DNA from: Mitsuokella jalaludinii DSM 13811
GTDB taxonomy: Bacteria > Bacillota > Negativicutes > Selenomonadales > Selenomonadaceae
DNA length: 55,618 bases
Direction of reading: 5' to 3'
Assembly (NCBI RefSeq): GCF_000702905.1
Contig: NZ_JNKR01000016.1
Location: 1-55,618 of the forward strand
Positions 6,955 to 45,962 of this stretch are shown in pieces (position 1 is the first letter of the stretch; the number at the start of each line of letters is the position of its first letter). The notes below the pieces were generated by a model, which did no database searches, had not been told where the DNA came from, and saw only the letters and a list, made by a program, of their open reading frames with translations. The position numbers and the translations under genes were made by a program.

Positions 6955-6995
6955 GCGCTGAGTATGGACCTTATTTTGGGGAAGGGGAATCAATC

Positions 6996-8267
6996 ATGGG
7001 GAATCTACTGAAGGCATTCTCGAATCCGTTCTACAGGACGAGTTCGCTTGAGATCCTGCTGTTCTTCGCGGGCTGGGGCATCTGGTGGTCGTTCTTCCAG
7101 ATCTGGCTGACGACGAAGCAGGGCTTCACGGGGGCGCAGGTCGGCACGATCTACACGTTCGGCTCGGCCGTGGCGCTTGTCCTGATGTTTGTTTACGGCT
7201 CTGTGCAGGATAAGCTCGGTGTGAAGAAGAATCTGCTAATCTTCATGGTCAGCTGTCAGGTGCTATTGGCACCGTTCTTCACTTGGGTCTATGTGCCGAT
7301 GCTCGAAAGCAACTTCTACGTCGGCGCGATGGTCGGCGCGGTCTACCTCTCGGTGGCCTATCTCGCCGCCTGCCCGGTCTTCGAGGCCGTGACGGAGAGG
7401 CTCAGCCGCCGCTACCGCTTCGAGTATGGACAGGCGCGCGCCTGGGGCTCTCTCGGCTATGCAATCTCGGCCCTGACGGCTGGCTTCCTGTTCACCATCA
7501 ATCCGTACCTGGTCTTTTGGACGGGCTCAGCTGTGTCGGCAGTGCTGCTGGCCATCTTGGTCTTCCTGAAGCCGGAGAACTCTGAGGCAAATGTCCAGCA
7601 GTATGAGAACCGCGAGGAGCGCAATAAGGATGCGAAGTCTCCATCGCTCAAGGAGATCATCAGCGTCTTCGGCATCCTCGACCTCTGGAAGATCATCATT
7701 TTCGTCATCCTCAGCTGGACCTTCTACACGGTCTTCGACCAGCAGATGTTCCCTGAGTTCTTCACGCGCTTCTTCGCGACGCCGGAGGAAGGCCAGCAGG
7801 CCTACGGTGTCCTGAACTCGGTGCAGGTCTTCCTCGAGTTCATCATGATGAGCCTCGTGCCGATTCTCATGCGCAAGATTGGCGTGCGCCGCGCGCTGCT
7901 CCTCGGCTGCCTGATCATGGTCTGCCGCATCAGCGGTTGCGGCATCGCCTCCACGCCGCTCGGCATCGCCCTCATCAAGCTGCTGCATGCACCGGAAACG
8001 GCGCTCTTTGTTCTCGCAATCTTCCGTTATTTCACACTTCACTTCGATACGCGCGTATCCGCCACGCTCTACATGGTCGGCTTCCAGATCGCGGCGTCCG
8101 TGGGCGGCATCATCTTCTCGGTGCCGCTCGGCAGCCTGCGCGACAGCATCGGCTACCAGCACACGTTCCTGCTCATCGCGGGCATCGTCCTCTGCGCTAC
8201 GGTCTACGCGTTCCTCATCCTGAAAAAGGATGACCAGGACGTAGAAGGTCAGCCGCTCGAGAACTGA
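6996..8267 (+). CDS. MFS oligosaccharide:H+ symporter (LacY/CscB-like), copy 1
   Basis: 423 residues with twelve predicted membrane helices. The pattern resembles the oligosaccharide:H+ symporter group of the major facilitator superfamily: N-terminal LLFFAGWGIWWSFFQIW, QDKLGVKK in the first cytoplasmic loop, and YGQARAWGSLGYA near helix 5. Set between two GH32 genes it most likely imports sucrose or short fructans. Shine-Dalgarno GGGGAAGGGG precedes the ATG, 41 bp after the GH32 stop. A second copy, closely similar along its whole length, lies at 12546-13811. Confidence 0.85.
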   Translation: MGNLLKAFSNPFYRTSSLEILLFFAGWGIWWSFFQIWLTTKQGFTGAQVGTIYTFGSAVALVLMFVYGSVQDKLGVKKNLLIFMVSCQVLLAPFFTWVYVPMLESNFYVGAMVGAVYLSVAYLAACPVFEAVTERLSRRYRFEYGQARAWGSLGYAISALTAGFLFTINPYLVFWTGSAVSAVLLAILVFLKPENSEANVQQYENREERNKDAKSPSLKEIISVFGILDLWKIIIFVILSWTFYTVFDQQMFPEFFTRFFATPEEGQQAYGVLNSVQVFLEFIMMSLVPILMRKIGVRRALLLGCLIMVCRISGCGIASTPLGIALIKLLHAPETALFVLAIFRYFTLHFDTRVSATLYMVGFQIAASVGGIIFSVPLGSLRDSIGYQHTFLLIAGIVLCATVYAFLILKKDDQDVEGQPLEN

Positions 8268-12508: not shown

Positions 12509-12545
12509 AAACGAGATATTCCATGGGGGAAAGGGGAAACATATC

Positions 12546-13811
12546 ATGGGGAATCTTTTGAAGGCTTTTTCGAATCCATTTTACAGGACAAGCTCGCTTG
12601 AGATCCTGCTGTTCTTCGTTGGCTGGGGCATCTGGTGGTCCTTCTTCCAGATTTGGCTGACGACGAAACAGGGCTTCACAGGCGCCCAGGTCGGCACGAT
12701 TTATTCCTTCGGATCTGCCGTGACGCTTGTCTTGATGTTTGTCTACGGTTCCTTGCAGGATAAGCTCGGCATGAAGAAAACACTGCTGAAGTTCATCGTC
12801 GTCTGCCAGATTTTCGTCGGCCCGTTCTTCACCTGGGTCTATGTGCCGATGCTCGCAGCGAATTTCTACGTCGGCGCGGTGATCGGTGCCATTTACCTCT
12901 CCATCGCATTCCTCGCGGCCTGCCCGGTCTTCGAGGCGGTGACGGAGCGCCTGAGCCGCCGCTACTCATTTGAGTACGGCCAGGCGAGAGCCTGGGGTTC
13001 GTTCGGCTATGCCGTTGCGGCGCTCTGCGCGGGCTTCCTCTTCACGATGAATCCGTACTTGATCTTCTGGACGGGTTCTGTTGTCGCTGCTGTCCAGCTC
13101 GTTGTCCTGGCTGCGCTGTCGCCGGAGAAGAACGCAGCGCTCACGTCCCAGTATGAAGTCCAGTCGGAAACCCTCAAGGAGAGCAAGACGCCGTCCTTCG
13201 GCGAGATCATCGGTGTGTTCAAGCTCATCGATGTCTGGAAGATGATCGTCTTCGTTATCATGAGCTGGACGTTCTACACGGTCTTCGACCAGCAGATGTT
13301 CCCGGAGTTCTTCACGCGCTTCTTCTCGACGCCGGAAGCAGGCCAGCAGGCATACGGCGTGCTCAACTCCATCGAAGTCTTCCTCGAGTTCCTCATGATG
13401 GGCCTCGTGCCGATCCTCATGCGCAAGATCGGCGTGCGCAAGGCCATCCTGCTCGGCTGCGCCATCATGATCGTCCGCATCGGCGGCTGCGGCCTCGTCA
13501 CGAATCCTCTGGGTGTCGCCATCATCAAGCTGCTGCACGCACCGGAGACGGCCCTCTTCATCCTCGCTGTTTTCCGCTACTTCACGCTTCACTTCGATAC
13601 GCGTATTTCGACGACGCTCTACATGGTCGGTTTCCAGATTGCCGCACAGGTCGGCCAGATCATCTTCTCGACGCCGCTCGGCGCCCTGCATGACAACATC
13701 GGCTACCAGAGCACGTTCCTCGTGATTTCCGGCATCGTCTGCGTGGCCAGCATTTACGCCTTTATCGTCCTCAAGAAGGATAATGAGAGTGTTGAAGGTC
13801 AGCCGCTTTAA
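12546..13811 (+). CDS. MFS oligosaccharide:H+ symporter, copy 2
   Basis: 421 residues, a close paralogue of the symporter at 6996-8267. It shares the same N-terminal start MGNLLKAFSNPFYR, the GQARAWGS motif and the EGQPL ending. Differences concentrate in the central cytoplasmic loop. The ATG at 12546 aligns with copy 1 and has GGGGAAAGGGG upstream; the longer frame from 12399 runs through the operators and is not coding. It stands alone with its own promoter and operators, so the cell can express a second carrier under the same regulator. The two may differ in chain-length or sugar preference (inference). Confidence 0.85.
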   Translation: MGNLLKAFSNPFYRTSSLEILLFFVGWGIWWSFFQIWLTTKQGFTGAQVGTIYSFGSAVTLVLMFVYGSLQDKLGMKKTLLKFIVVCQIFVGPFFTWVYVPMLAANFYVGAVIGAIYLSIAFLAACPVFEAVTERLSRRYSFEYGQARAWGSFGYAVAALCAGFLFTMNPYLIFWTGSVVAAVQLVVLAALSPEKNAALTSQYEVQSETLKESKTPSFGEIIGVFKLIDVWKMIVFVIMSWTFYTVFDQQMFPEFFTRFFSTPEAGQQAYGVLNSIEVFLEFLMMGLVPILMRKIGVRKAILLGCAIMIVRIGGCGLVTNPLGVAIIKLLHAPETALFILAVFRYFTLHFDTRISTTLYMVGFQIAAQVGQIIFSTPLGALHDNIGYQSTFLVISGIVCVASIYAFIVLKKDNESVEGQPL

Positions 13812-13820
13812 AAGGATTTT

Positions 13821-13878
13821 TTAGATAGCACAACAGCCTCTGTTTTTTATTTGAAACAGAGGCTGTTGTGCTATCTAA
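13821..13878. terminator. long bidirectional terminator
   Basis: A 25-bp perfect stem (13821-13845 with 13854-13878) and an 8-nt loop, between the converging second MFS gene and the YczE-like gene. Confidence 0.9.
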
Positions 13879-25029: not shown

Positions 25030-25228
25030 GGCTTGTGGCCGAGGCACTGCCGACGCTGCGCTCGGCGATGGCCTAAAAATTTTTTTAGGCATTTAATCAA
25101 GCCTTGCCGGGAATCTAAACGCGCTTCGCTTGGACGACGATTCACGGCAAGGACAGCTTGTAGCCTGAAAAAATTTTCTTAACGGCCATCGCCAAAGCTC
25201 CGCTTACGTCAGCGCCTCGGCCACAGCC
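25030..25228 (+). repeat. structured intergenic element, family I, copy A
   Basis: A 199-bp imperfect palindrome with nested stems: GGCTTGTGGCCGAGGC (25030-25045) with GCCTCGGCCACAGCC (25214-25228); GGCGATGGCC (25064-25073) with GGCCATCGCC (25184-25193); ATTTTTTTAGGC (25079-25090) with GCCTGAAAAAAT (25163-25174); CCTTGCCG (25102-25109) with CGGCAAGG (25145-25152); GAATC with GATTC. The apical loop 25116-25138 contains ACGCGCTTCGCTTGGACG, which recurs in copies B and C though their stems differ. Confidence 0.8.
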
Positions 25229-25417
25229 TTTGGCTTCGTTTCTCTTGGACATTTTCTTGACGGCCATTGCCAAAGCTTCGCTTACGTCAGCGCACCGGCC
25301 ACGGCCTTTGGCTTCGGTGCTCTCGGACATTTTCTTGACGGCCATCGCAAATGCTCCATTTACGGCAGTGGCCTCGCTCGGGTCTTGGGCCCCGTTGCTC
25401 TCGAACATTCCTTTTGA
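25184..25417. repeat. three tandem 78-bp units
   Basis: Units at 25184-25261, 25262-25339 and 25340-25417, each starting GGCCAT(C/T)GC. The first doubles as the right arm of copy A. On the minus strand they lie in one open frame of 93 codons (25142-25423) with AGGTGA before its ATG, giving a 26-residue repeat around A(L/F)AMAVKK. Whether this is a protein or only a tandem duplication of the repeat arm cannot be decided here; changes between units 1 and 2 are mostly amino-acid changing, which argues against conserved protein. Confidence 0.7.
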
Positions 25418-36410: not shown

Positions 36411-36611
36411 CGCACGAAGGGGCAGGGGGGACAGCGCTGCGCGGCGGCAATCTGCTAAATCGATTTTTTCCCTTTCAATGCATCCTGACAAAAGAGCGAA
36501 ACGCGCTTCGCTTGGACGATGCTCTTTTGCCAGGGTCTTGGTGGGGAAAAAATCGATTCTTCACGCAGATTGCCAAACGCTTCGCTTATGTCCACCCTGC
36601 CCCTTCGTGCG
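36411..36611 (+). repeat. structured intergenic element, family I, copy C
   Basis: 201 bp: CGCACGAAGGGGCAGGG (36411-36427) pairs perfectly with 36595-36611; GGCAATCTGC (36446-36455) with GCAGATTGCC (36565-36574); AATCGATTTTTTCCC (36458-36472) with 36544-36558; CCTG with CAGG; CAAAAGAGC (36489-36497) with GCTCTTTTG (36521-36529). The apical loop holds the same 21-mer as copy A (36499-36519 against 25117-25137, identical), while the stems are unrelated in sequence. Confidence 0.82.
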
Positions 36612-36701
36612 GAAGCTGCTATATCCAATCTTCGCGATGGCAAGTCACTGGAATGGCGGTTCGCAGGCAGTATCGTCTTGCGGCGCTGCTCTGGCGTTTG
36701 A

Positions 36702-36880
36702 GCGCAGGGAGGTATTTCGCCTGCAAGAGCGGAGCGATTTGCCCGAAGGGCTGTGCCCTGACCAAAAGCAGCTTAGCATGCGATGTCGGAACGCCGTGGC
36801 AGGCGGCGAGGCGGCCTCTATGGGAGGCCTGTCATAGGGCACATTCAGCGGAGCGATGAAGCCGAAATACCTCCCTGCGC
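36702..36880 (+). repeat. structured intergenic element, family II, copy D
   Basis: 179 bp framed by an 18-bp perfect inverted repeat (GCGCAGGGAGGTATTTCG at 36702-36719, complement at 36863-36880). Inner stem TGTGCCCT/AGGGCACA. Shares with copy E the blocks GTATTTCGCCTGCA, GAGCG.AG.GA, CGATGTC, AGGCGGCGA and GGAGCGA.GAAGCCGAAATAC. With copy C it fills the gap 36397-36963, where no gene is seen. Confidence 0.8.
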
Positions 36881-36894
36881 GCTCATTTTTGCGA

Positions 36895-36942
36895 AAAAGC
36901 GGTAAGCCGCAAGTTCATAGATACTTGCAGCTTACCGCTTTT
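36895..36942 (-). terminator. terminator of MutS-like gene
   Basis: AAAAGCGGTAAGC pairs with GCTTACCGCTTTT, with an inner CAAGT/ACTTG stem; T run on the minus strand. Confidence 0.85.
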
Positions 36943-36963
36943 GTGATGCGATTCTCCTGTGTT

Positions 36964-38733
36964 TCAGGAGAGTATGCCGGCCATCTTGAGCAGGTAGCGG
37001 GCGTTGGTGGTGTGGCAGCGGCCGGGGCGGATCTTGAAGTCGAAGTGGATCTTGTCATCCTGGTACGACTCTTCGAAGTGGAAGTTCTCGATGGGCAGGC
37101 CATTTGGCGACTGGAGGTCGCAGAGCTCGAAGTCGTGGGTGGTGACGAGGGTGATGCACCAGTCGCGCGTGAGGCGCTTGATGGCTTCGGCGGCTCCTGT
37201 GATGCGGTCGGCGGAGTTCGTGCCCTTGAAGATCTCGTCGATGCATAGCAAGAGCGGCCGCTCTTCCTGGCTGGCCTCGACCATCTGGCGGATGCGCAGG
37301 ATTTCGGCGTAGAAGGTCGAGATGCCGCGCGAGAGGTCGTCGCTGACGTGGATGGAGGTGTAGACCGCCATCGGCGTCAAGGCAAAGGCTTTGGCGCAGA
37401 CGGGGGCGCCGGCGTAGGCGAGGATAGCGGAGGTGGCAAGCGTGCGCATGTACGTCGTCTTGCCGCTCATGTTCGAGCCCGTGATGATGCAGGTGCCGGC
37501 CTGGAAGGCGGCGTCGTTCGGCACGGCCTTTGCTTCTTCAATTAGCAGCGGTGTCACGGCATGTGCATCGAGGTCCGGGTTGCCGGCGTGCAGTTTGGGC
37601 CAGCAGAAGGTTTCGCGCGTGAGCGCGGGCGTGGCGAGGGAGAGCAGGGCTTCGACTTCGGCCCAGGATGCGAGGTGGCGGCGCAACTGGCGGCCGTACT
37701 GTTCCTTCCAGGCGAAGGCGCGCGCCGTGCAGTGGAGATCATAGAGGCAGGCGGCGTTGGCCACGAGAAAGAAGAAGATGTTGCGCCGCATGGCGGCGAG
37801 GTCGGCGAGCCCCGCAAGGTGGTGCAGTCCCTCTGAGGCGCGCTGCTCGCGCATGTTCTTCTGGATGGTGAGCAGCAGCGGACTCTTGTAGTCTGCCGCT
37901 TCCATCTTGGCGAGCAGCTGCTCGTAGACGCTGAGTTCCTGCGGCAGTGCCATGAGCGGGGCGAGCAAGGCTTGGCTGCGGCGCAGCAGCAGGAAGGTGA
38001 GCAGCAGCTGCAGCGAGAAGAGCAGGCCCGGCACGGTGATGTCCAGCTGGCCTGCGAGGGAGAGCGCGAGCGCGATGAAGGAGAGGCCCGGCAGCAGGTA
38101 GGAGAGCAGGCGCAGGGCTGTGCTCTTCCTGACGTTATCCTGCTCGAGCATCGTGCAGAAATCCGAGAGGTCGGTGCCGAGCGGCAGCAGGTGGCTGCGG
38201 GCCTCGAGGACCAGGAGCTCCTGTGGAGACTCGCTGAGCTCGCGGACGGCTTGCTGGCGCAGCAGGATTGCGTCGGTGGACTCGGGGAAGGGGGAGAGCC
38301 AGCTGGCGAGCTTTTGGCGGCCGGCTTTTGTCCGCGCAGACGTGAGATACTGATAGAGAGAGGCGCGGCCTAGGATGGGCAGGTCGGCTTCCAGTGGGCG
38401 GTCTTCACGCATGAGGTCGTGGCCGTCGTCTGCGAAGCCGCGCCACTTGCCCGACTTTCGGTCGAGGAAGGACTGCACGCAGCCGAGATGGCTCTCCGTC
38501 AAGAGCTTTTCGAAGGAGGCCTGCTGGTGGCGGCGGACGAGCAGCAGGAAGGCGGCGAGCAGCAGGACGCCGAGGAGTGTGCCGAGGCGGTGCCCGTCAA
38601 AGCCCGCGGCAAAGGCGAAGATCATGGCGAGGAAGGAAGCGCTGCGCAGCAGCACGAGGCGCTGCAGGCGCTGCTTCTGCTGCCCGATGGCCTGCAGGTC
38701 GCGCTGCTGCAGTTCGTGGAAATCAATCATCAT
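36964..38733 (-). CDS. membrane-anchored MutS-family ATPase
   Basis: 589 residues. Two hydrophobic helices near 30-65 and two more near 215-255, then a MutS lever/clamp-like helical part and a C-terminal MutS ABC-type ATPase: Walker A GSNMSGKTT (about 419-427), signature-like DDLSRGISTFYAE, Walker B LLLCIDEIFKGTN (about 495), and the His switch TTHD. The mismatch-reading N-terminal domains of true MutS are absent. Such membrane MutS-like proteins are common in Firmicutes and Bacteroidetes, with no known role; mismatch repair should not be assumed. AGGTGA precedes the ATG. It is divergent from the small coiled-coil gene at 38880. Confidence 0.8.
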   Translation of the reverse strand: MMIDFHELQQRDLQAIGQQKQRLQRLVLLRSASFLAMIFAFAAGFDGHRLGTLLGVLLLAAFLLLVRRHQQASFEKLLTESHLGCVQSFLDRKSGKWRGFADDGHDLMREDRPLEADLPILGRASLYQYLTSARTKAGRQKLASWLSPFPESTDAILLRQQAVRELSESPQELLVLEARSHLLPLGTDLSDFCTMLEQDNVRKSTALRLLSYLLPGLSFIALALSLAGQLDITVPGLLFSLQLLLTFLLLRRSQALLAPLMALPQELSVYEQLLAKMEAADYKSPLLLTIQKNMREQRASEGLHHLAGLADLAAMRRNIFFFLVANAACLYDLHCTARAFAWKEQYGRQLRRHLASWAEVEALLSLATPALTRETFCWPKLHAGNPDLDAHAVTPLLIEEAKAVPNDAAFQAGTCIITGSNMSGKTTYMRTLATSAILAYAGAPVCAKAFALTPMAVYTSIHVSDDLSRGISTFYAEILRIRQMVEASQEERPLLLCIDEIFKGTNSADRITGAAEAIKRLTRDWCITLVTTHDFELCDLQSPNGLPIENFHFEESYQDDKIHFDFKIRPGRCHTTNARYLLKMAGILS

Positions 38734-38814
38734 ATCACCTCATGTTCTGGATTCTTTGTACATTGACTCCAGTATACCATGATTTGCTGGGGAAAATCTG
38801 ACCGGCCTTCTCGA

Positions 38815-38843
38815 TTGTCGGCGCCTTTATTTTCCTGTATAAT
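38815..38843 (+). promoter_or_regulatory. promoter of small coiled-coil protein gene
   Basis: TTGTCG (38815-38820), 17 bp, TATAAT (38838-38843). The divergent MutS-like gene has an extended -10 TGGTATACT on the other strand around 38772-38780. Confidence 0.65.
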
Positions 38844-38879
38844 AGGGAACAAGAGCAAATCACGAAAGGAAGTCATACT

Positions 38880-39053
38880 ATGGCAGAGAATGAAGCCGTC
38901 CGGCGCCTGCAGGCCAGCATCGACCTGCTCAAGGAGCGCATGCGCATCGACTCGAATGACCTCGAGTACGAGTCGCACCTGCGCCAGAAGCGCCAGCTGC
39001 AGCGCATCCTGGACCGCCTGCTGGCAAAAGAAGCGGCGGAAAAGAAGCTCTGA
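38880..39053 (+). CDS. small helical protein of unknown function
   Basis: 57 residues, highly charged, predicted to be one long coiled coil broken once (RRLQASIDLLKERMRI, then HLRQKRQLQRILDRLL). Not recognised. AAAGGAAG seven bases before the ATG, GC-rich third positions and the good promoter upstream support it as a real gene. Confidence 0.7.
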   Translation: MAENEAVRRLQASIDLLKERMRIDSNDLEYESHLRQKRQLQRILDRLLAKEAAEKKL

Positions 39054-39159
39054 CGTCTTGCCGCGTCTCGTGGGATTTCCATTTTTTCAGGAAGTATTCA
39101 GCATGGTTCGATAAAATGTAAACATCAAAAAGTCAAAGATAAAAGAGAGGATGACATAT

Positions 39160-39438
39160 ATGTCAAAGCGCATGACGATGGATGAGGTACTCAAGGAATA
39201 CGGCGTCCCGCAGATCAAGCTCGATATCCACGCGACGCGCAGTGAGCTCTTGAAGCTCCGCGAGAAGCTCATGGCCATCCGCGACCTGTCGGGCGGCAAG
39301 GAGCAGGGCTACCTCGATATCGACTGCAAGCTCTACATCGATGTCGACGACATCGACCGCTATCTGTCGGGCGAGCTCGACACGATCGGCGAGATCTACG
39401 CCTTCCCGGAGGACATCAAGTCGTACCGGGAAGAGTGA
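39160..39438 (+). CDS. small acidic protein of unknown function
   Basis: 92 residues, no membrane segment: SKRMTMDEVLKEYGVPQIKL, a Leu/Arg-rich helix, then an acidic stretch with DIDCKLYIDVDDIDRYLSGE. Not recognised. GAGAGG lies nine bases before the ATG at 39160; the in-frame ATG at 39151 is too close to it. It stands between two other small genes of the same direction and codon use. Confidence 0.65.
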   Translation: MSKRMTMDEVLKEYGVPQIKLDIHATRSELLKLREKLMAIRDLSGGKEQGYLDIDCKLYIDVDDIDRYLSGELDTIGEIYAFPEDIKSYREE

Positions 39439-39489
39439 TGGATACAGAAGACATTTTGTATTTTTGTTTGATATAAAGGAGAATCGTTG

Positions 39490-40161
39490 ATGAATATCAA
39501 GAAGACACTGTCAGCTCTCATGGTCGGTGCCATGGTTCTTTCCGCTGCACCGGTCCTGCCCGCTTCTGCGTCCTTCGTGAGCACGGCCTATGCGGCCAAG
39601 GGCGGCGCGAAGATGAGCATCCCGAAATCGGCTCCGGCGCCGAAGGCTCCGGCCGCTGGCGCGACGAATAATGCTAATACGAGCAAGTCAGTCTCGGGCA
39701 ATGGCTCTTCGTATGCGCCGTCCAAGGACGCCAAGAGCCTCGACAAGAATGCGCCGGCCGCGAATGCGAAGTCGAATGCGGCCGCCGCTAACGCGAACAC
39801 GCAGAGCTCGAGCCGCCTCGGCAGCATCATGCGCGGCATCGGCATCTTTGCGGGCGGCATGCTGCTCGGCTCGATGCTCTCGCACCTCTTCGGCATGGGC
39901 AGCGGCATGTTCGCCGACATCCTGGGCCTCTTGATGAACGGCCTGCTGATCGTCGTCGCCATCATGGCCGTGCGCTGGCTCTGGAACAAGTTCCGCGGCA
40001 ATAAGACGAGCGCTAGCAGCCCGCGCGATCACCGCCAGGACCTTGAGATGCGCCAGCAGCCGATGGACAGCCAGCAGATGCGCACGCCAATCCAAGATAT
40101 CAAGCCGCGCGGCAACGACTACGAGCCGAAGTCCACGGCTGACCGCTACCGCAATCGCTGA
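39490..40161 (+). CDS. secreted or inner-membrane protein, Tim44-like N-terminal organisation
   Basis: 223 residues: a signal peptide (NIKKTLSALMVGAMVLSAAP), a long Ala/Ser/Asn/Lys-rich low-complexity stretch (about 38-105), then two hydrophobic helices with Gly and Met (GIGIFAGGMLLGSMLSHLFG, and LLMNGLLIVVAIMAVRWLW), and a polar Gln/Arg tail. The Gly-rich double helix resembles bacterial Tim44-domain proteins, but the Tim44 domain itself is missing. Function unknown. AAGGAG precedes the ATG at 39490. Confidence 0.6.
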   Translation: MNIKKTLSALMVGAMVLSAAPVLPASASFVSTAYAAKGGAKMSIPKSAPAPKAPAAGATNNANTSKSVSGNGSSYAPSKDAKSLDKNAPAANAKSNAAAANANTQSSSRLGSIMRGIGIFAGGMLLGSMLSHLFGMGSGMFADILGLLMNGLLIVVAIMAVRWLWNKFRGNKTSASSPRDHRQDLEMRQQPMDSQQMRTPIQDIKPRGNDYEPKSTADRYRNR

Positions 40162-40196
40162 TATATCGTTCCTACGCATAGAAAGAAGTGTATCTC

Positions 40197-40853
40197 ATGC
40201 CCAAAACATCCACACTTGCGAAGGTCGATGACCTCATCGCACGTTATCCTGCCCTCTCCGTTTGCCGCGATGACCTCATCGAGGCCGTCAAGGCCATCTG
40301 CGAGAGCTATGCAGCCGGCCACAAGCTCATCGCCTGCGGCAACGGCGGCAGCGCTTCAGACGCCGAGCACATCGTCGGCGAACTCATGAAGGGCTTCCTG
40401 CTGCCGCGCAAGCTCGATGACGATATGGAAGCGAAGATGCGTGCCGTCTGCCCGGAGGAGGCGGATTACTTCATGGAGAACCTGCAGGGCGCGCTGCCGG
40501 CTCTCTCGATGGTCAACCAGGTCGCGCTCAACACGGCCTTTGCCAACGACCAGGCACCGGACCTCTCCTTTGCCCAGCAGCTCCTGGGCATGGGCGACGC
40601 GGGCGATGTCCTGCTCGCCATCTCGACGTCGGGCAACTCGACGAACGTCATCTACGCCCTGCAGATGGCCAAGGTCAAGGGCGTCCGCACGATCGCGCTG
40701 ACGGGCAAATCGGGCGGCAAGATCAAGAGCCGCGGCCTCGCGGACATCACGATCTGTGTGCCGGACGATGAGACGTTCCGCATCCAGGAACTCCACCTGC
40801 CGGTTTACCACATGCTCTGCATCGCCGCAGAGAACGAATTCTTCGGCGACTGA
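40197..40853 (+). CDS. gmhA: phosphoheptose isomerase
   Basis: 218 residues, one SIS domain. Converts sedoheptulose-7-phosphate to D-glycero-D-manno-heptose-7-phosphate, first step to the LPS inner-core heptose. ACGNGGSASDAEHIVGEL is the GmhA signature; STSGNSTNV and the catalytic His/Glu region FRIQELHLPVYHMLC follow. The insertion MENLQGALPALSMVNQVALN is also seen in GmhA-type enzymes. I chose the ATG at 40197 over a GTG at 40188. The other heptose genes are not in the window. It supports an LPS-containing outer membrane. Confidence 0.88.
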   Translation: MPKTSTLAKVDDLIARYPALSVCRDDLIEAVKAICESYAAGHKLIACGNGGSASDAEHIVGELMKGFLLPRKLDDDMEAKMRAVCPEEADYFMENLQGALPALSMVNQVALNTAFANDQAPDLSFAQQLLGMGDAGDVLLAISTSGNSTNVIYALQMAKVKGVRTIALTGKSGGKIKSRGLADITICVPDDETFRIQELHLPVYHMLCIAAENEFFGD

Positions 40854-40865
40854 CAAGCGCCATGC

Positions 40866-40902
40866 GCCCTGTTTCCCGCTATTCGGGGAGCAGGGCTTTT
40901 TT
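40866..40902 (+). terminator. gmhA terminator
   Basis: GCCCTG-TTCCC pairs with CGGGGA-CAGGGC (small bulges), followed by six T residues. Confidence 0.8.
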
Positions 40903-40956
40903 GCGTGACCGGCTCAGCCATGTGGTGCTATGATAGAGGGAAAAGGGGGAATCTAC

Positions 40957-41706
40957 ATGCTGACCGCTTATCTCGTGGGCTTCGAGGCTCATCTGGCACC
41001 AGCCTTTGTCATCTTCTTCTCGGCCGTCCTGCAGTCTATCACAGGCTTTGGCCTCGTCATCGTGGCGGCTCCACTGCTGATGATCTTCTACGATCCGAAG
41101 CTCACCGTGCCGATCATGCTGCTCCTGGCCTGCTGTGCCAATTTCTGCCAGGGCCTCTTTGCGCTGCGCACGGCGAATCTCAGGCTTGTCTTCTGGCTCT
41201 ACCTCGGCGTGCTCTGCGGCCAGCCGCTCGGCTTCTGGGCCTTCGACCACGCCTCGAGCGCGATGCTCAAGGTCTTCATCAGCGCCATCGTGCTCTTCTC
41301 GCTCGGCACGATGCAGGCCTTTCACCTGCGCATCCGCGAGCGCCCGCGCAACTCGTGGATCACGGGCATCTTCTCGGGTTTCACATCCATCACGGCCGGC
41401 ATGGGCGGTCCGCCGTTTCTCATTTACCTGGCCCACAGCAGGATGACCGTCGAAGTCATGCGGGCGACCTGCTTCGTATTCTTCTTCCTCTGCAATGTGA
41501 CTTCCCTGACGAGCTATGAGCTCGGCGGCTTGCCGATTGCGCCGGCCCTCGGCGAGTGCATCTATCTGCTGCCGGCGCTCGTGCTGGGCATCCTCATCGG
41601 CCACGCCATCTTCGCCTACGTGCCCAAGGCGCTCATCCGCCGGCTGATCTTTGTCCTGCTCTACATCACCTGCCTCTACACGATCCTCTCGGTACTTGTA
41701 CATTGA
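40957..41706 (+). CDS. TauE/SafE-family permease
   Basis: 249 residues, seven to eight membrane helices, two homologous halves: QSITGFGLVIVAAPLLMIF in the first and GFTSITAGMGGPPFLIYLA in the second, the paired signature of the TauE/SafE (DUF81) family. Members export sulfite, sulfoacetate or related anions; the substrate here is unknown. I chose the ATG at 40957 with AAAAGGGGG upstream. Monocistronic. Confidence 0.85.
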   Translation: MLTAYLVGFEAHLAPAFVIFFSAVLQSITGFGLVIVAAPLLMIFYDPKLTVPIMLLLACCANFCQGLFALRTANLRLVFWLYLGVLCGQPLGFWAFDHASSAMLKVFISAIVLFSLGTMQAFHLRIRERPRNSWITGIFSGFTSITAGMGGPPFLIYLAHSRMTVEVMRATCFVFFFLCNVTSLTSYELGGLPIAPALGECIYLLPALVLGILIGHAIFAYVPKALIRRLIFVLLYITCLYTILSVLVH

Positions 41707-41733
41707 ATACATTCCTGTCATCAGAAAATTTGA

Positions 41734-41818
41734 TTTACATTGTCAAATATTATGATATAATAGACTTTGTGTTTGTACGCCCTAGACGTACAAACATAAT
41801 TTACCGGACACGTTCCGG
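41734..41818 (+). promoter_or_regulatory. OPT transporter promoter and operator-like palindromes
   Basis: TTTACA (41734-41739), 16 bp, extended -10 TGATATAAT with TATAAT at 41756-41761. Just downstream GTTTGTACG (41771-41779) and CGTACAAAC (41787-41795) form a perfect 9-bp inverted repeat, and CCGGA/TCCGG follows at 41804-41818. The first covers the start site and is a likely repressor site. Confidence 0.7.
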
Positions 41819-41834
41819 ATAAGGAGCTATTTAC

Positions 41835-43865
41835 ATGAAACAGGAAGAAAATGAGTTCATGCGGCACGAATTGCGGCTGCCGGAGCTCACGGTCCGCGGC
41901 ATGCTGCTCGGTGCTCTCTTGACGGTCATCTTCACGGCATCGAACGTCTACCTCGGACTCAAGGTCGGACTGACCTTTTCGTCGGCCATCCCGGCAGCTG
42001 TCATCTCGATGGCTGTGCTCAAGATGGCCAAGAACTCGAACATCCTCGAGAACAACATGGTGCAGACGCAGGCATCGGCCGCTGGCACGCTGTCTGCCAT
42101 CATCTTCATCATTCCGGGCATGCTGATGATCGGCTACTGGCAGGGCTTCGAGTTCTGGCAGACATTGCTTGTCTCGGCCTGCGGCGGCTGTCTCGGCGTG
42201 CTCTTCACGATCCCGCTGCGCCGCGCGATGGTCGTGCACAGCGACCTCGCCTACCCGGAGGGCGTCGCAGCGGCTGAGATCCTCAAGGTCGGCAGCCACG
42301 AAAAGTCGGCCAAGGAGTCGAAGGGCGGTTCGGGCATCAAGGAGATCGGCGCGGGCGGCGTGCTCGCCGGTGTCATCGCCTTCTGCACGAATGCCCTGCA
42401 GGTGCTCGGCTCGGAGCTCTCGCTCTGGATACCGGTCGGCCGCGGCATGACGCAGCTGCCGCTCGGTTACTCAACGGCACTCGTCGGCGCTGGCTACCTC
42501 ATCGGCATTGCGGCGGGCCTCTCGATGCTCGTCGGCATCCTTATTGCCTGGGCCGGCTTTGTGCCGTACTACACGATCACAGGGGCGCTTCCGGACGGCA
42601 TGACGATGCAGAAGTTTGCGGGCACGGTCTACCAGGAGCGCGTCCGCCTCATCGGTGCCGGCGCCATGGGCGTCGCGGCCGTCTGGACGCTCATCATGCT
42701 CGCGAAGCCGGTCGTCGACGGTGTCAAGGAGTCGCTGGCTGCCATGCATGCGCCGGACTCGGATAAGGGCAAGCATCGCATGGACATCGATATGAGCGTC
42801 CAGAGCATCGCAATGGTCTTCAGTGTGACGGTCATGGGGCTCCTGGGCATCTTCTATGCATTTGTCAGCCCGGAGGGCCTGCCGGTTTCGGAGAACCTGA
42901 CGTTCACACTCGTCGGCGTCGGCGTTGCCATCCTCATGGGCTTCTTCGTGGCCGCTGCCTGCGCCTACATGGCCGGCCTCGTCGGCACGAGCTCGAGCCC
43001 GATCTCGGGCATCGGCATCCTCGCCATCATCGTGGCCTCGCTCGTCATGTACGCGCTCTGCTCGTCCTTCGGCATCTTCTCCATGCCGGGTGGTGAGAAG
43101 TTCGCGACGGCTACGGCCATCTTCACGACATCCATCATCATGGCGATTGCCTGCATCTCGAACGACAACATGCAGGACCTCAAGACAGGCTATCTCGTCG
43201 GCGCTACGCCGTGGCGCCAGCAGGTCGCCCTGCTGCTCGGCTGTGTCGTCGGCGCGCTCGTCATCGCGCCGGTCCTCAATCTGCTCTACGAGGCGTACGG
43301 CTTCCCGGGCGCCCTGCCGCGTCCTGACATGGACCCGTCGCAGGCACTCGCCGCTCCGCAGGCAGCCCTGATGACGACAATCGCACAGGGCATCTTCTCG
43401 AGTACGCTGGCTTGGGAGTACATCTACATGGGCCTCGGCCTCGGCGTCATCCTCGTTGTCGTCGACCAGCTGCTCAAGCGCACGACGCGCAACCTCTGCC
43501 TGCCGCCGCTCGCCGTCGGCATGGGCATCTACCTGCCGCCTTCCGTGCAGACCCCGCTCGTCGTCGGTGCCGTTCTCGGCTACCTGCTGCGCAAGCACAT
43601 GAAGGAGAAGCACGGTGAGGAAGAGGCAAAGGCTGGATTCCGCCGCGGCACCTTGTTCGCCTCGGGCCTCATCGTCGGCGAGTCCATCGTCGGTGTCGTG
43701 CTCGCCGGTGTCATCGTCGCGTCTGTCACGAACGGCGGCTCGGAAGCGCCGCTGGCCATCGTCGGCAAGGACTTCGCCGGCACGGCCGAATACCTCGGTT
43801 TGGCCGTCTTCGCTGCGTCGCTCGCAATCTTCTCCAAGATCGTGCTCGGCAGCAAGAAGGGCTGA
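41835..43865 (+). CDS. OPT-family oligopeptide transporter
   Basis: 676 residues with about fourteen to sixteen membrane helices. TVRGMLLGALLTVIFTASNVYLGLKVG at the N-terminus, NNMVQTQASAAGTLSAIIF and YPEGVAAAEILK are hallmarks of the prokaryotic OPT family (proton-driven peptide or metal-chelate uptake). KVGSHEKS begins a cytoplasmic loop. AAGGAG lies before the ATG. Monocistronic with its own promoter and terminator. Confidence 0.9.
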   Translation: MKQEENEFMRHELRLPELTVRGMLLGALLTVIFTASNVYLGLKVGLTFSSAIPAAVISMAVLKMAKNSNILENNMVQTQASAAGTLSAIIFIIPGMLMIGYWQGFEFWQTLLVSACGGCLGVLFTIPLRRAMVVHSDLAYPEGVAAAEILKVGSHEKSAKESKGGSGIKEIGAGGVLAGVIAFCTNALQVLGSELSLWIPVGRGMTQLPLGYSTALVGAGYLIGIAAGLSMLVGILIAWAGFVPYYTITGALPDGMTMQKFAGTVYQERVRLIGAGAMGVAAVWTLIMLAKPVVDGVKESLAAMHAPDSDKGKHRMDIDMSVQSIAMVFSVTVMGLLGIFYAFVSPEGLPVSENLTFTLVGVGVAILMGFFVAAACAYMAGLVGTSSSPISGIGILAIIVASLVMYALCSSFGIFSMPGGEKFATATAIFTTSIIMAIACISNDNMQDLKTGYLVGATPWRQQVALLLGCVVGALVIAPVLNLLYEAYGFPGALPRPDMDPSQALAAPQAALMTTIAQGIFSSTLAWEYIYMGLGLGVILVVVDQLLKRTTRNLCLPPLAVGMGIYLPPSVQTPLVVGAVLGYLLRKHMKEKHGEEEAKAGFRRGTLFASGLIVGESIVGVVLAGVIVASVTNGGSEAPLAIVGKDFAGTAEYLGLAVFAASLAIFSKIVLGSKKG

Positions 43866-43881
43866 TTGGCTCTCAAGCATG

Positions 43882-43918
43882 AAAAAGAGGCCATCACCAT
43901 GGGTGATGGCCTCTTTTT
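43882..43918 (+). terminator. OPT gene terminator
   Basis: AAAAAGAGGCCATCACC pairs perfectly with GGTGATGGCCTCTTTTT around ATG. Confidence 0.93.
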
Positions 43919-44030
43919 GCTGTCGGTCTTTCTCCTTTTGCAAGCAGGATTTTGTGGAGTGGCTATGGAATAGAGAGAAGTAGCAATAACATGAAAACAG
44001 CAAGAATGAATCTTGCAGGGGGGTAATCAT

Positions 44031-45539
44031 ATGCCGATATCCGAAAAGAATCTGCTCAAGCTCGCCAATGGCAGCGATGTGCGCGGTGTTTCTATAGAGG
44101 GCGTGGCCGACGAGCCGGTGACGCTCAATGCCGAGGCCGCCAACCGCATCACGAGCGGTTTCCTCGATTTCCTCGCACAGAAGACGGGCAAGAGGGTCAA
44201 GGACCTGCGCGTTGCGGTCGGTCACGACTCACGCCTTTCTGCGCCGATGCTCAAGGAAGCGGTGCTCGAGGCGCTGACGTATGCGGGCGTCGTGACGGTC
44301 GACTGCGGCCTCGCGTCGACGCCGTCGATGTTCATGTCCATCGTCTTCCCCGAGACGAAGATGGACGGCTCCATCATGATCACGGCCAGCCACCTGCCTT
44401 ACAACCGCAACGGCCTCAAGTTCTTCACGAAGGACGGCGGCGTCGAGCATGAGGACATCATCGCCATCCTCGAGGCGGCAGCGCGCAATCCAGAGGTCAA
44501 GGGCGACCTTTCTAAGGCCCAGAAGTACAACCTCATCGATCGCTACTGCCACCACCTGCGCAAGAAGATCCGCGCGGCGCTCAACATGGGCGACACGCCG
44601 CTCAAGGGAATGCATGTCGTCGTCGATGCCGGCAACGGCGCGGGCGGCTTCTTCGCGACGCAGGTGCTCGGCCGTCTCGGTGCTGACACGTCGGGCAGCG
44701 TCTTCCTCGAGCCGGATGGCCACTTCCCGAACCACATCCCGAACCCGGAGAACAAGCAGGCCATGGCCGCCATCCGCAAGGCCGTGCTCGACAGCCATGC
44801 CGACCTCGGCCTGATCTTCGACACGGATGTCGACCGCATGAGCGCCGTCCTCAAGAACGGCAAGGAGATCAGCCGCAATGCCCTGATTGCCATGATGGCC
44901 GCCATCCTCGCACCGGACTATCCGGGCAGCACGATCGTCACGGACTCTGTCACGAGCGACGAGCTCACCGAATTCCTGCAGGGCGAGCTCGGCCTGCGCC
45001 ATCTGCGCTTCAAGCGCGGCTACAAGAACGTCATCGACGAGTGCATCCGCCTTAACAAGGAAGGCACCGTCTCGCCGCTGGCCATCGAGACGAGCGGCCA
45101 CGGCGCCCTCTCCGAGAACTACTACCTCGATGACGGCGCCTACCTGGCCGTCAAGCTCCTGATTGCCGTCGCCAAGGCCAAGGCACAGGGACGCCATCTC
45201 GCAGACCTCGTCAAGAAGCTCGGCGAGCCCGTCGAGAGCCGCGAGTACCGCATGAAGATCATGGGGGAGGACGACTTCCGCAGCTACGGTGAGAACGTGC
45301 TCAAAGTCTTCGAGCAGCGCGCCGCCGAGGCCGGCATCCGCGCGGCCAAGCCGTCGTACGAAGGCGTGCGCCTCGTCTTCCCGGACGGCTGGGCCCTGCT
45401 GCGCATGAGCCTGCACGACCCGCAGATGCCGCTCAACATCGAGAGCCGCAAGAAGGGCGGCGTCGCCGAGATCGCCGCAAAAGTCCAGGAATTCCTCCAG
45501 GGCTTCACGAGCCTCGACATGAGCGTCTTCAAGGACTGA
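44031..45539 (+). CDS. phosphomannomutase / phosphoglucomutase
   Basis: 502 residues of the alpha-D-phosphohexomutase superfamily. Interconverts hexose-1- and hexose-6-phosphates for surface polysaccharides. Phosphoserine S120 in ITASHLPYN, metal loop IFDTDVDRM (family DGDGDR), sugar loop ETSGHGALSENY, phosphate loop near the end (RLVFPDGWALLRMS). Whether mannose or glucose is preferred cannot be told. I chose the ATG at 44031 with GGGGGT upstream rather than 44013. Confidence 0.88.
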   Translation: MPISEKNLLKLANGSDVRGVSIEGVADEPVTLNAEAANRITSGFLDFLAQKTGKRVKDLRVAVGHDSRLSAPMLKEAVLEALTYAGVVTVDCGLASTPSMFMSIVFPETKMDGSIMITASHLPYNRNGLKFFTKDGGVEHEDIIAILEAAARNPEVKGDLSKAQKYNLIDRYCHHLRKKIRAALNMGDTPLKGMHVVVDAGNGAGGFFATQVLGRLGADTSGSVFLEPDGHFPNHIPNPENKQAMAAIRKAVLDSHADLGLIFDTDVDRMSAVLKNGKEISRNALIAMMAAILAPDYPGSTIVTDSVTSDELTEFLQGELGLRHLRFKRGYKNVIDECIRLNKEGTVSPLAIETSGHGALSENYYLDDGAYLAVKLLIAVAKAKAQGRHLADLVKKLGEPVESREYRMKIMGEDDFRSYGENVLKVFEQRAAEAGIRAAKPSYEGVRLVFPDGWALLRMSLHDPQMPLNIESRKKGGVAEIAAKVQEFLQGFTSLDMSVFKD

Positions 45540-45557
45540 CAAACTCATAATAAGCAT

Positions 45558-45597
45558 AAAAAAGCTGCTGCACCCGATGGTGCAGCAGCTTTTTTTC
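45558..45597 (+). terminator. phosphohexomutase gene terminator
   Basis: AAAAAGCTGCTGCACC pairs with GGTGCAGCAGCTTTTT around CGAT; seven T residues. Confidence 0.93.
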
Positions 45598-45712
45598 ATG
45601 TGAAGTTGTGGGGCGTGTGGGACGTTGTTAGGGCAATGTTAGAAAGTTTTGCAAGGGGGCGAGGGTGCCGAGAACCTGTCCTAGGTACGTCTCGTTCCCG
45701 AAGCGTATCTGA

Positions 45713-45897
45713 GGGAGGGGGCATGTATTTCGCCTGCAGGAGCGAAGTGACCGCCCGCAGGGCTGCGCCCCACTCCGTCAGTCTCTTAATAAGCCGATGT
45801 CAAAGCGCCGCGGTAGGCGGCGAAACAGCTTGGCATTGGCATCCTGTCATGGGGCGCATTCAACGGAGCGACGAAGCCGAAATACATGCCCCCTCCC
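45713..45897 (+). repeat. structured intergenic element, family II, copy E
   Basis: 185 bp framed by a 20-bp perfect inverted repeat (45713-45732 with 45878-45897). Inner stem TGCGCCCC/GGGGCGCA takes the place of TGTGCCCT/AGGGCACA in copy D, and ATGTATTTCG/CGAAATACAT replaces GGTATTTCG/CGAAATACC: both arms changed together. The rest of 45540-45962 shows no gene. Confidence 0.82.
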
Positions 45898-45962
45898 CTT
45901 GAACGATGTAAACCCACACCCTTCTTCGTTGCGCTTCCCCTTAAATAACTCCTGACTTCAAA

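Follow-up and report, generated by a model that had tools for sequence, protein, structure and literature searches.

Two intergenic copies of a repeat, each of about 180 bp and bounded by an inverted repeat, lie in the window considered here, a stretch of 55,618 nucleotides from Mitsuokella jalaludinii DSM 13811. The letters of their stems differ, and the stems nevertheless pair. The question is whether the two copies are members of a family whose structure is maintained by selection, or dead transposon ends whose arms would decay independently of each other.

Two copies of a structured module

The first-pass annotation had placed two copies of a repeat, denoted family II, at 36702-36880 and 45713-45897, and both are found in the sequence at these positions. 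As it had described, the outer stems consist of different letters and are perfect in both copies (18/18 pairs in copy 1, 20/20 pairs in copy 2), and the inner stem changes from TGTGCCCT/AGGGCACA in copy 1 to TGCGCCCC/GGGGCGCA in copy 2. The small hairpin Pa (GCCC-N3-GGGC) is a feature beyond this earlier description. The parts of both copies and two neighbouring features are:

36411-36613, no strand: family I palindromic element located 5' of copy 1, arms 36411-36427 and 36597-36613
36698-36884, + strand: family II module, copy 1, entire covariance-model match (172 bits)
36702-36719, + strand: copy 1, outer stem P1, 5' arm GCGCAGGGAGGTATTTCG, partner 36863-36880
36741-36751, + strand: copy 1, small hairpin Pa, GCCC-GAA-GGGC
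36752-36759, + strand: copy 1, inner stem P2, 5' arm TGTGCCCT, partner 36836-36843
36792-36808, + strand: copy 1, apical hairpin P3, CGCCGT-GGCAG-GCGGCG
36836-36843, + strand: copy 1, inner stem P2, 3' arm AGGGCACA
36863-36880, + strand: copy 1, outer stem P1, 3' arm CGAAATACCTCCCTGCGC, with ATTTTTG shortly 3'
45558-45595, no strand: upstream of copy 2, terminator-like hairpin that belongs to the flanking gene
45711-45899, + strand: family II module, copy 2, entire covariance-model match (195 bits, the top score of the genome)
45713-45732, + strand: copy 2, outer stem P1, 5' arm, partner 45878-45897
45753-45763, + strand: copy 2, small hairpin Pa, GCCC-GCA-GGGC
45764-45771, + strand: copy 2, inner stem P2, 5' arm TGCGCCCC, partner 45851-45858
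45806-45822, + strand: copy 2, apical hairpin P3, CGCCGC-GGTAG-GCGGCG
45851-45858, + strand: copy 2, inner stem P2, 3' arm GGGGCGCA
45878-45897, + strand: copy 2, outer stem P1, 3' arm

The family I element lies approximately 85-90 bp 5' of copy 1, as had been noted, and together they form a composite that is found in M. multacida too.

Architecture and covariation

The module comprises about 188 nt and is of near-constant length: 74-76 nt separate the TTTCGCC end of the outer stem from the apical hairpin, and 78-80 nt separate the apical hairpin from the other end of the outer stem. The 5' half consists of P1 (about 18-20 bp, with a G-rich 5' arm), a conserved 5' core that includes Pa, the 8-bp stem P2 and a variable loop; the 3' half begins with CGATGT and P3 and continues through another variable loop, P2' and a conserved 3' core to P1'. 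Three cores are conserved, namely CCTGCAGGAGCG..AGYGA..GCCCGNAGGG, CGATGT...CGCCGCGGCAGGCGGCG and CATTYARCGGAGCGACGAAGCCG. The sequence of the outer stem (about 20 bp) varies freely between copies.

A test for covariation had been suggested together with the two copies. In an alignment of 21 copies, 95.6% of the paired cells hold a pair (79.2% after shuffling), 24 pairs are changed on both sides (14.8 after shuffling) and the covariation score is 0.456 (0.140 after shuffling); on all five measures the proposed structure lies above all 500 shuffles (0/500). Shifting the structure by 1-3 columns lets pairing drop to 42-48% of cells. Pa is near-invariant within Mitsuokella, and its support is drawn, by eye, from other genera. 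A larger set of 62 copies consists of 22 copies from M. jalaludinii (G000), 2 from genome G001 and 38 from M. multacida (G002); it retains 61 of 75 model rows (at least 100 bits) plus one tandem copy, and leaves out two duplicates (L096) and two incomplete rows (L065:1312, L071:1501). For the pair counts, P1 was scored in 59 of the 62 copies and P2 in 51. In this set a Y-R pair within an internal loop covaries (TA 26, CG 24, other 12), the surrounding loop being otherwise unpaired and non-complementary. That these elements are copies far beyond chance, bounded by inverted repeats with real compensatory changes, is strongly supported.

Distribution of the family

A covariance model (R1) built from 21 M. 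jalaludinii copies identifies 24 full-length and 3 partial family II places in the M. jalaludinii genome (E <= 3.4e-5), with both window copies among the 24; of the 29 rows returned, two repeat counted places on the opposite strand. A sequence similarity search of the same genome gives 24 matches, some of them partial. The model has 40 matches in M. multacida (G002; DSM 20544) and 3 in G001. The search across Selenomonadaceae, likewise suggested by the first-pass annotation, finds modules in 30 of 189 genomes, spread over five genera (E <= 1e-4, strict filters); a separate search adds the genus g14 (E 3.9e-7), and 0 of 23 genomes from other families (G037-G059) have a match. The modules of genomes G017, G022, G015 and G028 have the architecture, and little of the sequence, in common with those of Mitsuokella. 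The exact core pattern is found in 22 stretches among named genomes (20 in M. multacida, one in MAG SUG1706 and one in Selenomonas montiformis) and in 0 stretches among viral contigs; among plasmid records copy 2 is unmatched. Compared against Rfam at the gathering threshold, the window matches tRNA alone, and no Rfam match overlapping a module is listed in 4 loci at E <= 1 or in 10 loci at E <= 0.5.

Composites and mobility

The modules sit in non-autonomous, MITE-like composites that consist either of a pair of modules or of a family I element plus a module. In the pairs, the 5' sides face a central spacer: among full matches, opposite-strand neighbours less than 500 bp apart are in (-)(+) order, 5' sides inward, in 13 of 13 cases. 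Two weak partial matches outside these 13 (G000 C13:52143 and G002 C4:149550) are also (-)(+). Many modules are nevertheless single, and at some Mitsuokella composites solitary module 3' ends constitute the outer inverted repeats.

Families I and II had been regarded as possible variants of one system; their arrangement supports this, their sequence does not. In the M. jalaludinii genome 5 of 12 family I places are located 25-157 bp 5' of a family II module in the same orientation, and at two sites composites of both families are inverted as blocks between species. Altogether, block inversion of composites is seen at 3 sites between G000 and G002, with flanks that are colinear and 85-93% identical. 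Tandem growth is also found, with one copy at L069 (G000) and three at the syntenic L077 (G002); the L062/L094 array is not counted as such, L062 being located at a contig end.

The composites of a related genus, g16 (G017, G177, G179), end in AAATTGCAGTTTGYC. In G017, the terminal inverted repeats (TIRs) AAATTGCAGTTTG...CAAACTGCAATTT are found at both ends of the unit in 14 loci, with a unit length of 605-613 bp in 8 of these and of 350-889 bp in the rest; the paired modules sit inside these TIR-bounded units, whose inverted repeats are about 13 bp long. Spacings of 607-608 bp between TIR ends recur at 8 places in G177, and spacings of 604-611 bp at 5 places in G179. The G017 unit examined is without a long reading frame, the longest stretch between stops being 85 codons, and no target duplication is recognised by eye in the G017 flanks. 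For an autonomous relative with identical ends, facing TIR pairs 1-5 kb apart were sought, and allowing one mismatch none occur in G177 or G179; G179 has one TIR pair approximately 8.0 kb apart (2821428, 2829408). Many G017 TIRs are located at contig ends. The suggested association with a protein family was sought for the Y1 transposases (PF01797), and none emerged. PF01797 is found in 11 of the 17 genomes searched. An identity of the modules with Y1/RAYT-type REP elements was rejected, as PF01797 is absent from three module-carrying genomes (G015, G022 and G028).

Change in place between two species

Copies at corresponding sites of M. jalaludinii and M. multacida allow the change of individual modules to be followed. 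M. multacida has a counterpart of each window copy, within a surrounding stretch that is 88-91% identical. At the 45.7-kb site the outer stem has two compensated pairs and one pair of the inner stem is lost; the outer stem of the 36.7-kb site has one broken pair and one turned into G-T. The G001 region matching this stretch has no module match, and its counterpart of the 45.7-kb site is a short gene-terminator-gene spacing.

Fifteen sites provide 17 syntenic module pairs for comparison. Differences amount to 63 of 1350 positions (4.7%) in the conserved cores and to 305 of 813 (37.5%) in the variable loops, hence the cores are approximately 8-fold better conserved than the loops of the same copies, and they are less diverged in 17 of 17 pairs; since the compared copies are related and not independent trials, such counts overstate significance. 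P1 differs at 88 of 748 positions and P2 at 25 of 272. The near flanks differ at 892 of 2521 positions, a figure that is inflated because the flanks of inverted composites are not true counterparts; the loop figure is unaffected. For 12 of the 17 pairs the syntenic copy is also the closest in core sequence, with 28/939 differences in cores and 200/589 in loops (summed by hand), and with 10 double changes, 10 G-T and 1 A-C (counted by hand). A different M. multacida copy is closer in the other 5 of 17; these sites may have been overwritten or replaced, one of the five (L067) being a case of slipped anchors.

Independent stem decay, which the first-pass annotation had named as the mark of dead transposon ends, was sought in 18 pairs (P1 scored in 17, P2 in 14). 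In place, 26 double changes from one Watson-Crick pair to another are counted, alongside uncompensated changes of which 15 are single and 4 double. Of the 26 double changes in P1 and P2, 15 are classified by hand as transversion-type, unreachable via one G-T step. Copies are also lost, as G000 retains the right part or the outer arms alone at 2 of 3 aligned sites where only G002 has a module. Because the unpaired cores are conserved and pairing is kept at fixed sites, the copies are not decaying ends.

Template switching is a reported source of multibase compensatory changes in stems (PMC8794818), as well as of arm homogenisation and spacer inversion (PMC8604942). It is conceivable that the modules are dead MITEs without function whose stems are kept paired by such homogenisation of their arms, and the transversion-type changes, the inversions and the deleted remnants are all in line with this. 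Homogenisation, however, would not shield unpaired letters from change, whereas unpaired cores are 4-5% diverged and loops 34-41%, and it yields neither the bias of G-T over A-C described below (16:1) nor the covariation of the Y-R pair; we regard this explanation as very improbable. Template switching may still account for part of the covariation in P1, given the share of transversion-type double changes. It leaves the cores, the wobble bias and the Y-R pair unexplained. As the latter is located in a non-complementary loop, homogenisation of arms cannot readily create it.

Strand and molecule

Mismatch types indicate which strand folds. In the 62-copy set, G-T exceeds A-C in P1, P2, P3 and the Y-R pair (64 versus 21), and single-sided changes to or from a Watson-Crick pair comprise 16 G-T and 1 A-C in the 18 syntenic pairs. 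The variable loops of these copies show no matching bias in their substitutions (C/T 80, A/G 96), therefore the bias is not mutational. Selection on a duplex predicts equal numbers of G-T and A-C, since each is the other on the opposite strand. The bias thus assigns the fold to the model strand, which is the + strand of the window for both copies. Going by these counts, the window + strand seems to be under selection as a folded single strand, and this single strand is probably RNA.

The model strand also folds better in 21 of 22 modules of G017 and in 11 of 12 modules of G022 (22 of 23 and 12 of 15 matches were used, respectively). The whole-module folding energy in Mitsuokella does not prefer the model strand (31/62), with 264 G-U pairs on the model strand and 311 on the opposite strand; the strand assignment for Mitsuokella is thus read from the wobble counts of the conserved helices exclusively. 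No conserved promoter is found upstream of the modules, and none of the three stretches scanned has a consensus promoter on the model strand. In the G017 spacer a promoter had been suspected by eye, and the scan gave it no support. An upstream GTANCT motif is present in some copies only.

REP sequences and integron attC sites act as hairpin substrates in the form of single-stranded DNA. The modules might likewise be folded single-stranded DNA, substrates of recombination or transposition that are selected as hairpins for recognition by an HUH- or integrase-like enzyme. A strand-specific tolerance of G-T suits single-stranded DNA equally to RNA, the inverted module pairs are similar to REP pairs, and tandem growth (L069/L077) as well as block inversions are rearrangements at the level of DNA. 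The presence of Y1_Tnp, though, does not track the modules (none in G015, G022 and G028), the G017 composites with their ordinary terminal inverted repeats are closer to a DDE-type MITE, and long-term constraint in place is unexpected for a mere transposition substrate. We therefore consider this alternative rather unlikely, if worth serious attention.

Genomic setting

For 60 copies with both neighbouring genes called, the neighbours are convergent in 29 cases, codirectional in 29 and divergent in 2; at convergent sites the module 3' end is the one closer to a gene in 27 of 29, with distances that are approximate, as gene context derives from a simple gene finder. Of the 62 copies, 23 have a terminator-like hairpin on the facing strand no more than 130 nt from the 3' end, against 2.4 expected from shuffling, and 9 have one there on the model strand. 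On the module 5' side there are 8 terminator-like hairpins on the model strand and 10 on the opposite strand (1.6 expected). In G017, an intrinsic-terminator look-alike precedes 10 of 18 left ends, as judged by eye. We read this proximity as insertion beside terminators. A further candidate, in which the outer stem is a host terminator with the element inserted in its loop, was rejected: most of the copies inspected are without a T run after the stem, and compensated stem changes in place speak against such an origin as well.

Gyrase or IHF act on REP/BIME sites as duplex, and the modules could similarly be a double-stranded or cruciform site for a chromosomal protein with no function as a single strand. 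In favour of such a site are the long palindromes and a location that is intergenic, seldom between divergent genes and frequently near terminators. A duplex is strandless, however, so that the bias of G-T over A-C is not accounted for, and an outer stem of about 20 bp that varies freely argues against sequence-specific duplex binding there. We hold a duplex site to be a poor candidate, with only a slim chance of being correct.

Relation to known systems

Surveys of structured RNAs list multi-copy mobile or repeat sequence candidates (MRSC), whose structure is possibly relevant as DNA (PMC11109978). One of these, MRSC-65-2, is like the modules in being structured, present in dozens of copies per genome and without a fixed gene orientation, and its authors leave the choice between RNA and DNA undecided, as is the case here (PMC11109978). 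The Rfam comparison, in which the copies tested are without a match, gave no link between the two. In distinction to these candidates, the modules are constrained in place, form paired composites and, in one genus, have terminal inverted repeats. REP/REPIN elements with TnpA-REP (RAYT) are also multi-copy intergenic palindromes with inverted pairs and a structured unit (PMC8266576), and the modules share the inverted pairing. REP units, however, mostly comprise 20-50 nt (PMC12306157), whereas the modules comprise about 188 nt with large conserved internal loops; a short unit led by a GTAG/GGAG tetranucleotide is not what is found in modules of fixed length. REPs are furthermore accompanied by a Y1-type transposase (PMC8266576), a domain that three module-carrying genomes lack.

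With MITEs, the modules share the short G017 units, the terminal inverted repeats and the lack of a long reading frame in the unit examined; they differ in that the composites have no recognised target duplication or matching transposase, and in an interior that consists of two covarying modules. HEARO/omega RNA and the IS110 bridge RNA are structured noncoding RNAs of mobile elements and of similar size. The modules differ from them, as the copies tested have no overlapping Rfam match and the one composite considered has no long reading frame. Integron attC sites and CRISPR-like arrays were considered too and set aside on their general features. Literature listings (titles and the beginnings of abstracts, in the longer lists 10 to 15 of 132 to 275 papers) gave no description of these elements, and PMC11109978 and PMC12306157 have no mention of Mitsuokella or Selenomonas. 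We class the elements as structured intergenic repeats derived from a mobile element, for which the evidence of copy maintenance is unusually direct.

Interpretation

The reading we prefer, at about an even chance, is that structured modules of about 188 nt were spread in MITE-like composites and are now held at intergenic sites by selection on the fold of one strand, each copy appearing to do a job. Given that the fold and the unpaired cores of one strand are selected at fixed sites, a folded RNA bound by protein is the simplest interpretation. The original spread would have used a transposase supplied in trans, and the selected form would be an RNA from the model strand (window +). A putative protein would bind the three conserved cores, held together by the long outer stem, whose sequence is free to vary. 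Template switching between the outer-stem arms probably speeds up the paired changes, with selection retaining the outcome.

A more far-reaching version sees a structured noncoding RNA that was carried as transposon cargo across Selenomonadaceae and then domesticated, with tens of copies per genome functional in place. The modules would then be a bacterial counterpart of SINE-derived RNAs, with one fold that diverges rapidly and has a separate version in each genus. We consider this version, taken as a whole, possible but doubtful.

We note that multi-copy structured repeats of bacteria are commonly regarded as selfish debris. With syntenic copies in two species, selection becomes measurable copy by copy: within one copy, cores and pairing are kept and loops drift. 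Should the selected molecule be RNA, the modules would represent a multi-copy RNA family not yet described, with a partner specific to it; should it be DNA, they would represent a strand-specific hairpin site used in several genera. The modules also provide a natural system in which template switching can be separated from selection in the evolution of stems, because one molecule combines a long, switchable stem with a lone covarying pair beyond the reach of switching.

Variation of the elements within and between genomes

The palindromic family I element and the arrays of the family II module (a structured intergenic element of ~188 nt) considered here are the following:

window 36411-36613, family I palindrome
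L077 7617-8251, M. multacida, head-to-tail array of family II modules, 3 copies
L094 8647-9207, M. multacida, head-to-tail array of family II modules, 3 copies

The family I palindrome occurs at 12 places in the genome of M. jalaludinii. Compared with its M. multacida counterpart, the window copy has a nearly identical core, and its outer arms change together. The site in M. jalaludinii syntenic to the L077 array holds one module copy; the site syntenic to the L094 array lies at a contig end. Within the latter array, the outer stem (P1) is missing its matching 3' arm in two of the three copies.

In G017, a genome from a related genus, a near-perfect palindrome, CAAGAACATCGATGTACTTG, is found in the spacer of the paired unit (L206 1490-2097) and of other such units, and constitutes the best conserved stretch among nine aligned spacers.

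Other repeats in the window

Positions 6984-7925 and 12534-13475, 5.55 kb apart and inside long reading frames, are duplicated with 80-82% identity, and are probably paralogous genes. A hairpin with a perfect 25-bp stem and an 8-nt loop, TTAGATAGCACAACAGCCTCTGTTT, is located at 13821-13878. At 25173-25406, a 78-bp repeat occurs three times in tandem, the second and third units being 88% and 72% alike to the first, respectively.

Inversion of composites between species

At three syntenic pairs of loci (L058/L081, L060/L094 and L064/L083), composites, consisting of two family II modules or of family I plus one module, lie in place in opposite orientation between the two species, with colinear flanks of 85-93% identity. 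Small inversions recur at the same kind of element.
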